Below are positions 1 to 3,943 of a DNA stretch of 64,000 nt, one piece after another. The stretch spans positions 62,001-126,000 of the forward strand of contig NYUD01000061.1 in assembly GCA_002683825.1 (NCBI GenBank). The letters run 5' to 3'. Each line of letters begins with the position of its first letter. The stretch's first letter is position 1. The translations under genes and the position numbers were made by a program. The notes below the pieces were generated by a model that saw only the letters and a program-made list of their open reading frames with translations, did no database searches and was not told the origin of the DNA. Origin of the DNA: Planctomycetota bacterium. GTDB lineage: Bacteria; Planctomycetota; UBA1135; GCA-002686595.

Positions 1-1803
1 CCGAACGGAAGAGTCCTGGAGGAGTATCTCCCAGAACGCTATTCCCGCGAGCTCCTCTCGCACTTCCAGCAGATGCAGAAGCACAAGGTCCGCGATCGGA
101 TCGGTCCGCCCAATATCCTCGTGCAAAACGATGGCAACGGAGGGTTCTCGTGCGTGGAGAACACGCCCCTGGAGATCTATCGCAATACATTCCAGGCCAG
201 CTTCGCGGACTTCGATGTCGACGGCGATCCTGACGTCTACGTCGCCAATGACTTCGCGCCGAACCACATGTTCCGGAACGACGGAGGCACCTTCGTCGAC
301 ATCACCGCCGAGACAAATGCAGAGGACGTCGGCTTCGGCATGGGCATCTCCTGGGGTGACTACGACCGCGACGGCGATCAGGATGCCTACGTGTCAAACA
401 TGTACAGCAAGGCCGGCAACCGCATCCTCAAGAGCATCAAGGGGCTCAATCAGACCTTCCTGAGAATGGCGGCAGGGAACTCGCTCCTCGAGCTGGAGAA
501 CGGCTCGTTCGAACGCGTTTCCTCGCTGGAAGGGCCCGGCATGCACGTCGAAATGGCGGGCTGGTCCTGGGGAAGTCAGTTCGTCGATGTCGACAACGAT
601 GGTTGGCTCGATTTGTACGCGCTTTCCGGCCACTACACCGCGCCCAGGGAAATACGGGCCGGGCATGACTTGTGAAGCGAGTTCTGGCGCACGGTCGTGC
701 GCTCGGACGACAACATCAAGTTCCGCAAGCGCGATGAGGGGGATCTGAGCGACTTCGGAGAATCGAAGCCGACAAACTCCTTCAGCGGCGGCGAGACGGA
801 CCACCTGTTTCTCAGCGATGTCGGAGAGCAGTTCTACGACCTCGACATGCTTTCCGGATTGGCCCACCCGGGCGACGGGCGTACCGCGTGTCAGCTGGAC
901 TATGACAGGGACGGTTGGAACGACTTTGTCGTCGCAAGCGCCAACGCCCCTACCGTACAGCTGTATCGCAACCGAATCGGCGAACGCTTCCACCCGGATG
1001 CGAAGGGATCCCGCATGGTCGCCCTCCGTTTCGTCGGCGGCAACCGGACGACAGCCGCATCCACCGAATGGAGCCCACGCGCGGGCTACGGCGCCCTGGT
1101 GAACCTGAATATCGGCGGCAAGCCCCTGGTGCGAGAGGTTCGCTGCGGCGACGGCCGGGCTGCCGTCCACTCACGCACGATGCTGGTGGGCGTGGGCGAC
1201 AACAAACTCATCCGTGAAATCCACGTGCGCTGGCCCTCGGGCAAGGAGCACTCCTGGAAGAACGTTCCAGCGGGCAGGCTCGTGACCGTGTATGAAAATC
1301 CTGATGAATCGCCGAACAAGAAACCCTTCCACACCCAGCCGTACCTGAAGAACGTGTTGAAGGGCGCCAAGCTGGCACAGGCGGAGAAGAAGCACCTCCC
1401 GTTGACCCTCCCCCACGACGACTCGCCGGCGGCGTTGAACCTGGTGACGGCCATGTCGACACACTGCAAGGGTTGCCAGAGGCTACAGCCCCAGGTCGCC
1501 TTGCTACGTGAAACGTTCGACAGATCCCTCGTCGGCATCTGGGGCGTGGGCACGGACCTGGACGAATCGCCTGAAACACTGGAAGCCTACTCCGGAGCTC
1601 ATCAGCCGGCGTACTTGGTGCTGAGCGACCTGGCAATGGAAGAGCGACGCGCGTTGCGCGAACACGTGCGGGATACCTTCCAGGACGACCTGACACCGGC
1701 AACCGTGATCACGGATGCTTCGGGCGGGATCCTGCGAACCCTCACCGGAATTCCGACGGTGTCGGAGGTCCTGGAACTCCTGGACTCCGTGCAAGGACGC
1801 TGA
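1..1803 (+). CDS. FG-GAP / ASPIC-UnbV protein fused to a thioredoxin-like domain; 5'-truncated, one in-frame TGA (candidate selenoprotein)
   Basis: The frame is open from base 1, so the gene starts outside the window. The first part carries FG-GAP/VCBS calcium-loop repeats such as DFDVDGDPDVYVAND and DYDRDGDQDAYVSN. The middle part (about 1080-1310) is an ASPIC/UnbV domain ending in RWPSGKEHSW. From about 1320 comes a thioredoxin-like domain with a CKGC redox motif. One TGA at 673-675 interrupts the frame between G-H-D-L and S-E-F-W-R. Protein similarity, repeat phase and reading frame continue unchanged after it, and a hairpin follows it directly. Selenocysteine is one reading; a point nonsense mutation, a sequencing error or a broken gene are the others. 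If TGA were a real stop, the downstream piece could start only at GTG 697, which has no good ribosome site. The likely location is exported or envelope-associated, as is usual for this family; the signal peptide would lie off the window. Certain: domains and the stop. Inferred: recoding. Confidence 0.75.
673..702 (+). promoter_or_regulatory. In-frame TGA followed by a SECIS-like hairpin
   Basis: Bases 687-692 (GCGCAC) pair perfectly with 697-702 (GTGCGC) around the four-base loop GGTC at 693-696. The loop begins 17 bases after the TGA at 673-675. A lower helix CGAG/CTCG (678-681 with 702-705) can form instead with a six-base 5' bulge rich in U. Bacterial SECIS elements need a short stem-loop just after UGA with a G in the first loop positions, and the E. 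coli fdhF loop contains GGUC. Size, spacing and loop all fit. Chance pairing in GC-rich coding DNA is a real alternative, and no selA/selB/selC gene is in the window. Confidence 0.45.
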
Positions 1804-1834: not shown

Positions 1835-2137
1835 TCATGCTCGCTTGGGTTTCTTCGCCCGCTCCTGGCGTTCGCGAGACTGTGCGATGATCATCTCGAA
1901 CAGGCGCTGCACAAAGGATACGTCCAGACCCCGCTGACGAGCGACACGCGCATACAACTCGCTCAGGAATGCCTCGCGCTCGGGATCTTCCACCGACATC
2001 AAGTTCTCGTTCTTCCAAATCGAGAGTTCTTCGACCACCTGGAACCTCTCCGACAGCACATGAACAAGCTCGAGGTCCAGCTCTTCGATGCGTTCGCGCA
2101 GGCGCTCGACTTGCGGAGGGAGGGGTCGTTCGTTCAT
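1835..2137 (-). CDS. Chorismate mutase, AroQ type
   Basis: A 100-residue all-helical protein that should convert chorismate to prephenate in the cytoplasm, on the route to phenylalanine and tyrosine. The N-terminal helix RLRERIEELDLELVHVLSER is the typical AroQ helix 1 (R-x3-I-D-x-L-D/L-x3-L-x-R), followed by a lysine-bearing helix (ELSIWKNENL) and P-x-R-E, as in the mutase half of PheA P-proteins. Its ATG overlaps the stop of the prephenate dehydratase gene (ATGA at 2134-2137), so the two are translationally coupled. The PheA functions are thus split over two small proteins. A lysine/arginine-rich tail ends the protein. The assignment is strong; whether it binds the dehydratase subunit is inference. 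Confidence 0.85.
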   Translation of the reverse strand: MNERPLPPQVERLRERIEELDLELVHVLSERFQVVEELSIWKNENLMSVEDPEREAFLSELYARVARQRGLDVSFVQRLFEMIIAQSRERQERAKKPKRA

Positions 2138-2760
2138 GAGGGTAGTTTCCGAACGATCACGAAGCGGGTTTCGTTCTCGGGATCGTCCTGAATGTCGGCA
2201 GCAAGGATGTGGAGACTGTAGGACTCAGCGGCGCGCTTTGACGCAATGACCGCGACGCCTGCATCGAGACGACCCTCACTGAGGTCGCGAGCGGCGGAAG
2301 CGGTGTCGCTCCAGTTCATCCACTCGCGCCCTGGAAATTCGCGGGAGAGGAATCCGGAACACTGGCTGATGGCCTGGGGATGGGAGACGACCCGCTCGAC
2401 GGCTGCGGGGCGCACCTCGGCAGTGCGGACGAGCAAGGAGTGACGAATGTCGAGGGAGATCTGGGCAATGGGTTGGAAGTTGAAGCGCCCCATCGCTTCG
2501 AAGGCACCGCGAACAAGACCTCCGACCAGGTTGGAAACAGGCAGGACGCCGAGGTCGACGCGCTCGTCGTCGAGGGCAGCCAGCACATCGTCGAAATCGG
2601 CCTTGTTCACAACCTCGCAGGTAAGGCTCTCGCGCTTTGCATAGGCGCGTGCAGCATCTTCGGAAAAGGATCCTGGAGCCCCGAGCGCACTGATATGCAC
2701 GCGCTCCCCGGCGACTCGTAACGGAAACCCGGCTGTAGTCTGACTCTTTTTCTTCTTCAC
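2134..2760 (-). CDS. Prephenate dehydratase catalytic domain, no ACT domain
   Basis: A protein of about 208 residues with the periplasmic-binding-like fold of prephenate dehydratase (prephenate to phenylpyruvate). Visible signatures are ALGAPGSFSEDAARAY near the N-terminus, the VLPVSN segment, the SHPQAISQC motif, and the catalytic T-R-F motif (NETRFVIV) almost at the C-terminus. The protein stops there, so the C-terminal ACT domain that binds phenylalanine in normal PheA is missing. Allosteric control must come from elsewhere or be absent. I chose the GTG at 2758-2760, preceded by GGAAAA and 13 bases after the DAHP synthase stop; an upstream start would run back into that gene. Operon order is DAHP synthase, dehydratase, mutase. 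Confidence 0.85.
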   Translation of the reverse strand: MKKKKSQTTAGFPLRVAGERVHISALGAPGSFSEDAARAYAKRESLTCEVVNKADFDDVLAALDDERVDLGVLPVSNLVGGLVRGAFEAMGRFNFQPIAQISLDIRHSLLVRTAEVRPAAVERVVSHPQAISQCSGFLSREFPGREWMNWSDTASAARDLSEGRLDAGVAVIASKRAAESYSLHILAADIQDDPENETRFVIVRKLPS

Positions 2761-2773
2761 TAATTTTCCAGGC

Positions 2774-3853
2774 TCAGGAGATCTTCCTACGGAAAACTTT
2801 AGAACCGAGTTCTTCGACACGACGGGCAATGCTGTATAGCACGCCCATCGTACGCTCCCAACCCAGACATGGGTCAGTGATCGACAATCCGCTTCGATCG
2901 ACCGTATCCGCATCGACCTCGGTCAAACTCTGACTACCCGGCTTGAGGAAGCTCTCGAGCAGGAATCCACGCACGAACGGCTGCAGCTCGGGATGTTCAC
3001 GCAGGTTTCCAAACACCTCGCGCACGACGTCGATTTGCACCTCCGGCGACTTCTTGCCGTTGACCCGGGAGTTGTCGTGGCTGGCGTCGATCAGGATGGC
3101 GGGGTTCTCGACGCCGAGCTCCCACATGTGACCCCGAGCTCGGTAGAGGTGTCTCAGGTGATAGTTGGGACCGTGTCCCCCCCCCCGCAGGACCAGATGC
3201 GCGTAGGGATTGCCGCTCGTCTCCACCTGAAATCCGTCGAAAACGGCGATATGCGAGCTCTGAGCGGCGCAGACGCTGTTGACGCCGATCGGAATACAAC
3301 CGCTGGTGGGATTCTTGAGGCCGACGGGAGCTCCTATGGCGGAGGCCCAGATGCGGTGTTCCTGATCTTCGCTGCTGCGCGCCCCGATGGCCACCCATGA
3401 CAGAAGCTCGAGGAACCCCTTGGCGTTGTGCGTGAAGAGCGCCTCGTCGGCGATGGCGAGGCCCATCTCGATGGCTTCGACCATCATGCTTCGCGAATAG
3501 CGCATCCCTTCTCTGATGTCCGGAGCCGAGAAAGGATCGGGTTGGTTGACCGGCCCGGTCCACCCCTTCGCGGTGCGCGGCTTTTGGATGTAGGTGCGCA
3601 GCACGATCTTGAGCGCATCGGACACTTCGCCTTGAATGCCGCGCAGCCTTCGCGCGTACTCCAGAAACGCCGTGTCGGGCCAGGCGGAACACGGACCGAC
3701 GATCACGAGCATGCGTGGATCGCGCCCCGCGAGAATGTCCCGCACTTCCCGACGGTCGCGCAAGATTCGCGCGTAGCCCTCTTGTGACAGTGGGATGTCT
3801 CGAATCAGCTCTTCGGCTGTGGGCAAGCTCTTGATGTTGCGGAGAAAGTTCAT
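2774..3853 (-). CDS. 3-deoxy-7-phosphoheptulonate synthase (DAHP synthase, class I)
   Basis: First enzyme of the shikimate pathway: phosphoenolpyruvate plus erythrose 4-phosphate gives DAHP. About 359 residues, the usual length of AroF/G/H. Family blocks are VIVGPCSAWPDTAFLEYARR, the RTYIQKPRTAKGWTG segment, WVAIGARSSEDQEHR, LRGGGHGPNY, the metal and substrate segment ILIDASHDNSR, GFLLESFLKPGSQSL, and the closing SITDPCLGWE. The start is ATG 3853, giving MNFLRNIKSLPT, which aligns with family N-termini; a longer form from 3937 is possible but adds an atypical leader. It heads the operon with prephenate dehydratase and chorismate mutase, so it is probably the isozyme devoted to phenylalanine. 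Which feedback inhibitor it senses cannot be read from the sequence. Confidence 0.92.
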   Translation of the reverse strand: MNFLRNIKSLPTAEELIRDIPLSQEGYARILRDRREVRDILAGRDPRMLVIVGPCSAWPDTAFLEYARRLRGIQGEVSDALKIVLRTYIQKPRTAKGWTGPVNQPDPFSAPDIREGMRYSRSMMVEAIEMGLAIADEALFTHNAKGFLELLSWVAIGARSSEDQEHRIWASAIGAPVGLKNPTSGCIPIGVNSVCAAQSSHIAVFDGFQVETSGNPYAHLVLRGGGHGPNYHLRHLYRARGHMWELGVENPAILIDASHDNSRVNGKKSPEVQIDVVREVFGNLREHPELQPFVRGFLLESFLKPGSQSLTEVDADTVDRSGLSITDPCLGWERTMGVLYSIARRVEELGSKVFRRKIS

Positions 3854-3943
3854 GGTGTTCGATCGAGAATTTTCGGAAAGGATTCCCTCAACAGAAACGT
3901 ATCCCCGTTTTGGCAGAGAGGCTTGGAGAGCCCCCAATTCGAG

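Follow-up and report, generated by a model that had tools for sequence, protein, structure and literature searches.

A predicted family of exported bacterial selenoproteins with a CRTAC1-like propeller and an ASPIC/UnbV domain

The UGA codon at positions 673 to 675 of the window (the whole 64,000-nucleotide stretch of planctomycetal DNA analysed here) almost certainly encodes selenocysteine (Sec). By the sequence evidence, the gene belongs to a real and large selenoprotein family of bacterial proteins that are probably exported. We propose that SelB and tRNA-Sec would decode the codon, directed by a hairpin at 687 to 702, and that the product would be about 1,090 residues long, anchored in the membrane and probably exported. 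Its predicted parts, in order, are a CRTAC1-like FG-GAP β-propeller, an ASPIC/UnbV domain and a CxxC-bearing thioredoxin domain of the TlpA type; the Sec lies in the propeller part, where it begins a short conserved helix. The propeller selenol may be oxidised by a substrate, and the oxidised Sec may then be reduced by the CxxC domain within the same polypeptide. Taken as a whole, this explanation, in which Sec decoding produces a propeller/ASPIC/thioredoxin-tail selenol oxidoreductase recycled by its own CxxC, is the best we have and is quite likely correct. Redox catalysis, recycling in cis and export are the most likely reading of the patterns described below.

Position and conservation of the in-frame UGA

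The plus strand of the window is a single frame from position 1 to 1803, and the TGA at 673 to 675 is its sole interruption. A sequence-only reading had noticed one TGA splitting a continuous frame, and this held, with homology on both sides of the codon. The next in-frame stop is the TGA at 1801 to 1803, which is the true gene end. The 5′ part of the gene lies outside the window and starts about 1,470 bases (1.47 kb) upstream. The window corresponds to bases 62,001-126,000 of contig C76 in its genome (G000). In the window locus taken with its upstream flank (L001, G000:C76:60501-65300), the full frame from the ATG at L001:31 has 1,090 codons, and the UGA is codon 715. Because a second possible ATG lies further upstream, the start codon of the 1,090-codon frame is not certain. 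Downstream of the gene, three ORFs on the opposite strand (1835 to 3937, minus) look by eye like chorismate mutase, prephenate dehydratase and DAHP synthase, and so like ordinary aromatic amino acid genes.

Table 1. Features of the selenoprotein gene in window coordinates; residue numbers refer to the 1,090-codon frame.
Feature	Position	Strand	Basis
CDS, 3′ part of ASPIC/UnbV selenoprotein	1..1803	+	Homology to paralogues and relatives over the full length
FG-GAP/VCBS propeller repeat, residues 560-621, best-scoring of six matched stretches	208..393	+	Pfam PF13517, E 1.9e-34
Predicted Sec-site motif D713-L-U715-S-E-F-W719-R720	667..690	+	D, U, W and R invariant in the Sec-CxxC alignment (A3); helix 714-725 predicted
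UGA codon, almost certainly read as Sec, codon 715 of 1,090, motif D-L-U-S-E-F-W-R-T-V-V	673..675	+	TGA at the same column in homologues
SECIS-type hairpin: GCGCAC 687-692, loop GGTC 693-696, GTGCGC 697-702	687..702	+	Conserved only in UGA members; covariation
ASPIC/UnbV domain, residues 852-918	1084..1284	+	Pfam PF07593, 44.8 bits, cut-off 23.4
C-terminal thioredoxin-like (TlpA/AhpC-TSA type) domain, limits approximate	1408..1800	+	Pfam matches of relatives, fold search, β-α pattern
CxxC motif C979-K-G-C982 of the thioredoxin-like domain	1465..1476	+	Invariant in the Sec-CxxC alignment (A3)

We searched 41 related genomes with the read-through protein and found a single in-frame TGA in most of the strong matches. 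Eight TGA-bearing family loci (L001 and L063 to L069) lie in the window's genome alone. One of these (L066/L144) is of the U-S-C type and has no thioredoxin tail. Of 72 aligned homologues, 59 have U at the Sec column and the others have E, A, H, N or D. Among 167 distinct, non-redundant close homologues that share the WR motif, the column holds U in 134, A in 8, E in 7, N, R and Q in 4 each, and H, D and C in 2 each. That 134 of 167 homologues, among them eight loci of one genome, share the TGA at this column excludes chance. The sequence-only reading had placed a Sec between D-L and S-x-F-W-R and had proposed comparing homologues at this residue. The comparison bears the placement out, in that homologues have Sec (TGA) or rarely Cys at the column. 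The other residues found there are A, E, Q, D, N, H and R.

In the named sequence collection, the Sec members come from Verrucomicrobiota, Planctomycetota, Gemmatimonadota and Acidobacteriota, and one more entry, bearing the clade name BD2-11, is listed under Pseudomonadota. A locus from a genome of the window's family is 100% identical to Planctomycetota bacterium isolate OFTM79 across 3,204 bases, which points to Planctomycetota as the phylum of the window. Cys occupies the column in 2 of the 33 non-Sec WR homologues (2 of 167 overall), both from Verrucomicrobiota (L191 and L209). These two proteins, the only Cys homologues found, end shortly after the ASPIC domain and have no thioredoxin tail. 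Two unusual loci were also seen. An Acidobacteria bacterium (SZUA-115, contig QIHU01000415, L180) has two frames whose TGA falls in the Sec column of the alignment, although the motif is DLULPY or DLULPF and lacks WR; they are perhaps a second Sec subfamily. Another locus (L278, G060:C78:22300-27800) was counted with three in-frame TGAs. Its frame breaks 20 codons past the Sec position, and it is probably a frameshift or a decayed copy.

Domain layout and the co-occurrence of Sec with CxxC

The window protein scores above the Pfam cut-offs for both PF13517 (FG-GAP, 118.5 bits) and PF07593 (UnbV_ASPIC). An AlphaFold2 model, with Cys in place of Sec, has a pLDDT of 88.6 and a pTM of 0.87, and it places the residue at the N terminus of a predicted helix (714 to 725). 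The top Foldseek match of the protein is CRTAC1 (9etn; E 9e-26, 16% identity, TM 0.68 normalised by target length), which is also the sole PDB sequence match at E <= 0.01 (E 2.9e-31). Like CRTAC1 (cartilage acidic protein 1), the family has an FG-GAP propeller followed by an ASPIC/UnbV domain. However, the present family is distant in sequence, has the Sec-bearing helix with its WR motif, and mostly has a fused thioredoxin-like domain in addition.

No thioredoxin family matched the window protein at Pfam E <= 0.01, and the tail by itself found nothing when searched by sequence against the PDB. In relatives, the C-terminal domain matches AhpC-TSA and Redoxin above the Pfam cut-off. A fold search matched the tail to the thioredoxin-like structure 3eyt, and the modelled tail has a β-α pattern at high confidence, with C979-x-x-C982 at the start of a helix (980 to 984). 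The matches of relatives, the fold match and the model show that the thioredoxin-like domain read from the sequence is real, and its CxxC co-occurs with Sec. The tail is akin to the TlpA and AhpC-TSA thioredoxin-fold reductases in the matches of relatives and in a WASWCxxC-type motif. Unlike in those reductases, the domain here forms the tail of a propeller protein, whose Sec is located in the propeller and not in the thioredoxin motif.

Hydrophobic helices at the N terminus of the window protein suggest a membrane anchor. By a simple pattern, 31 of the 127 family members tested have lipoprotein-type signal peptides. These two features together make export likely, and family proteins are very likely to be located at the surface or in the periplasm.

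We found that Sec and the tail CxxC go together. Among Sec members without a nearby U-x-C and with a readable tail, 117 of 122 have the motif, versus none of 33 non-Sec members. The non-Sec members with A, E, Q or D have a tail of similar length from which the motif is absent, and in those with N, H, R or C the protein ends earlier. None of the five U-x-C Sec members has the tail CxxC; they occupy four positions on the tree (four lineages), mostly beside CxxC-bearing relatives. The exceptions to the association are varied. Two have a tail that lacks the motif (L019 and L297), one has no tail (L289), one has only a Cys five residues past the Sec (L288), and in L278 the frame is broken soon after the UGA. 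Three intact Sec members, L019, L297 and L289, have neither CxxC nor U-x-C.

A raw Fisher value for the association ignores shared ancestry and is not for use alone. The Sec label requires five changes on the tree, and the non-Sec members, all lacking CxxC, represent five independent losses. When five independent Sec/non-Sec pairs were drawn at random, CxxC went with Sec in four to five of them and never the opposite way. The pairs are suggestive, and a sign test over only five of them gives p 0.06 to 0.125, below formal significance. We think it probable, from this co-occurrence, that Sec and CxxC are coupled in redox chemistry. In U-x-C members, the neighbouring Cys, two residues away, would reduce the Sec instead of the CxxC.

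A different role for a genuine Sec has to be weighed here. The residue might bind a metal or a cofactor, or have a part in structure or sensing, and not be a catalyst recycled by the thioredoxin-like domain. Non-Sec homologues mostly have one of E, D, N, H, Q, A and R at the column in place of Cys, and several of these are possible metal ligands; the FG-GAP repeats are of the calcium-binding type, and D-rich repeats are conserved in the family. However, A, Q and R would be unusual substitutes for a ligand, and without selenol-thiol chemistry it is hard to account for why Sec co-occurs with CxxC and why U-x-C can take the place of that motif. We consider such a role unlikely but keep it in view because the replacements are mostly not Cys. 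Cys is rare among the replacements, and those commonly seen (A, E, Q, D, N, H and R) are not redox residues, so Sec could have another role in some lineages.

Beyond the selenol oxidoreductase reading itself, we lean modestly toward a broader picture. The family may be a large and ancient selenoprotein superfamily in which Sec and not Cys is ancestral, spread over Planctomycetota, Verrucomicrobiota, Gemmatimonadota and Acidobacteriota and rich in paralogues within each genome. Its members would be exported selenoenzymes, and their propeller selenol would be resolved by a CxxC in cis or by a Cys close by; the names of the MAGs suggest lineages largely of open seawater and sediment.

The hairpin after the UGA and the Sec machinery

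The sequence-only reading described a perfect six-base stem with a GGTC loop, starting 14 bases after the TGA, and a G as first loop base 17 bases from the UGA. The hairpin is exact, and 17 nt do separate the UGA from the loop. The 14 nt to the stem are counted from the first base of the TGA, which leaves 11 nt between the codon and the stem. Bacterial SECIS elements have a loop of 3 to 9 nt, a stem of 4 to 16 bp and a G in the first two loop positions, and lie 16 to 37 nt from the UGA (PMC13188914). The window hairpin and those of the family follow these rules. Of the 133 Sec members, 131 have a G within the first two loop positions of their best hairpin, and in 118 the spacing from UGA to loop is 17 or 18 nt.

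We compared the folding of the bases 3′ of the UGA with that of recodings that keep the protein and follow the gene's own codon usage, scoring the best hairpin of each sequence against its synonymous recodings. The Sec members (n = 133) average -10.6 kcal/mol versus -6.9 kcal/mol for the recodings (z -1.68). The effect is equally large in the Sec members of the named set (z -1.71, n = 29). In contrast, the non-Sec members (n = 33), which have nearly the same amino acids, average -6.8 versus -6.9 kcal/mol (z 0.01). Selection on the hairpin is thus confined to members that have the TGA. The common stem covaries: it has 29 double-changed cells against 12.9 for shuffled data, none of 500 shuffles scored as high, and stem registers slid from it score lower. 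RNAalifold found no consensus structure on a single-register alignment of 59 sequences, because there are two stem registers that differ by one base; the window's sequence is in the shifted one.

The earlier reading had also proposed looking for selA, selB, selC and selD, and all four are in the window's genome: tRNA-Sec (selC, 73.4 bits), SelB, SelA and SelD. SelD is itself a selenoprotein, with an in-frame UGA (AGAGUAAKLPPGKL; L302, G000:C109:29500-34500). The sequence 3′ of the selD UGA contains CGCA-GGTCT-TGCG, whose loop resembles the GGTC of the window. Across 392 genomes of the phylum, SelB is present in 63 of 69 genomes with listed TGA members versus 172 of 323 others (p 4e-10); at least 69 genomes have TGA members, as only the best-scoring members were listed. 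The six TGA-member genomes without a SelB match are incomplete MAGs (55 to 89%).

These results bear on whether the UGA is decoded as Sec at all. It could be a real stop or a nonsense mutation that leaves two genes or a pseudogene, as TGA is a stop in Table 11 and other TGAs in this genome end genes, for example the one closing the present frame. This is very improbable, given a TGA column common to 134 distinct sequences from several phyla with both halves conserved, a hairpin selected only with the TGA, and Sec machinery in the genome. We rejected a nonsense mutation on the shared column and the hairpin selection. Programmed readthrough would also retain an in-frame UGA, so the codon could be read as another amino acid such as Trp, through readthrough or code reassignment, or yield both short and long products. 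We give this equally little credence, since none of the 167 distinct WR-motif homologues has Trp at the column, the hairpin follows the bacterial SECIS rules (PMC13188914), SelB co-occurs, and TGA serves as a stop elsewhere in the genome; code reassignment was rejected on the same points. Although the assembly is a MAG, the chance that the TGA is a sequencing or assembly error is negligible and we rejected a read error for the family, because it recurs independently in 134 sequences, including seven other loci of the same genome.

Relation to known selenoproteins

A 2026 review catalogues 119 prokaryotic selenoprotein families (PMC13188914). We found no FG-GAP, VCBS, CRTAC or UnbV entry and no U-[ST]-x-[FY]-W-R motif among them. 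No NCBIfam model (release 20) matched the window protein at E <= 0.01. The earlier remark that this is not an established selenoprotein family therefore agrees with both resources. Our search of open-access full texts found no earlier report of a selenoprotein with UnbV, CRTAC1 or FG-GAP. Selenoproteins have been reported in cultured Planctomycetes, in a paper whose main text does not mention the family (PMC4807772). A selenoprotein is a known kind of protein, and it is the family and its architecture that appear new.

The known bacterial families likewise combine UGA decoding with a SECIS element immediately downstream in the coding region, but many of them have UxxC or CxxU motifs (PMC13188914). 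Cys homologues at the Sec position are a usual, not a universal, criterion for bacterial selenoproteins. Glycine reductase selenoprotein A (GrdA) has few or no Cys homologues (PMC1794560); it shares this scarcity with the present family but is an unrelated protein with a CxxU motif.

The family would add an architecture outside the published selenoprotein catalogue, mostly in Planctomycetota and Verrucomicrobiota. Pipelines that take every UGA as a stop would split each such gene in two, so a widespread family is probably misread in many genomes. The function of CRTAC1-like proteins is obscure, and the joint loss of Sec and the CxxC tail, or the replacement of the tail motif by U-x-C, suggests a testable redox mechanism for them.
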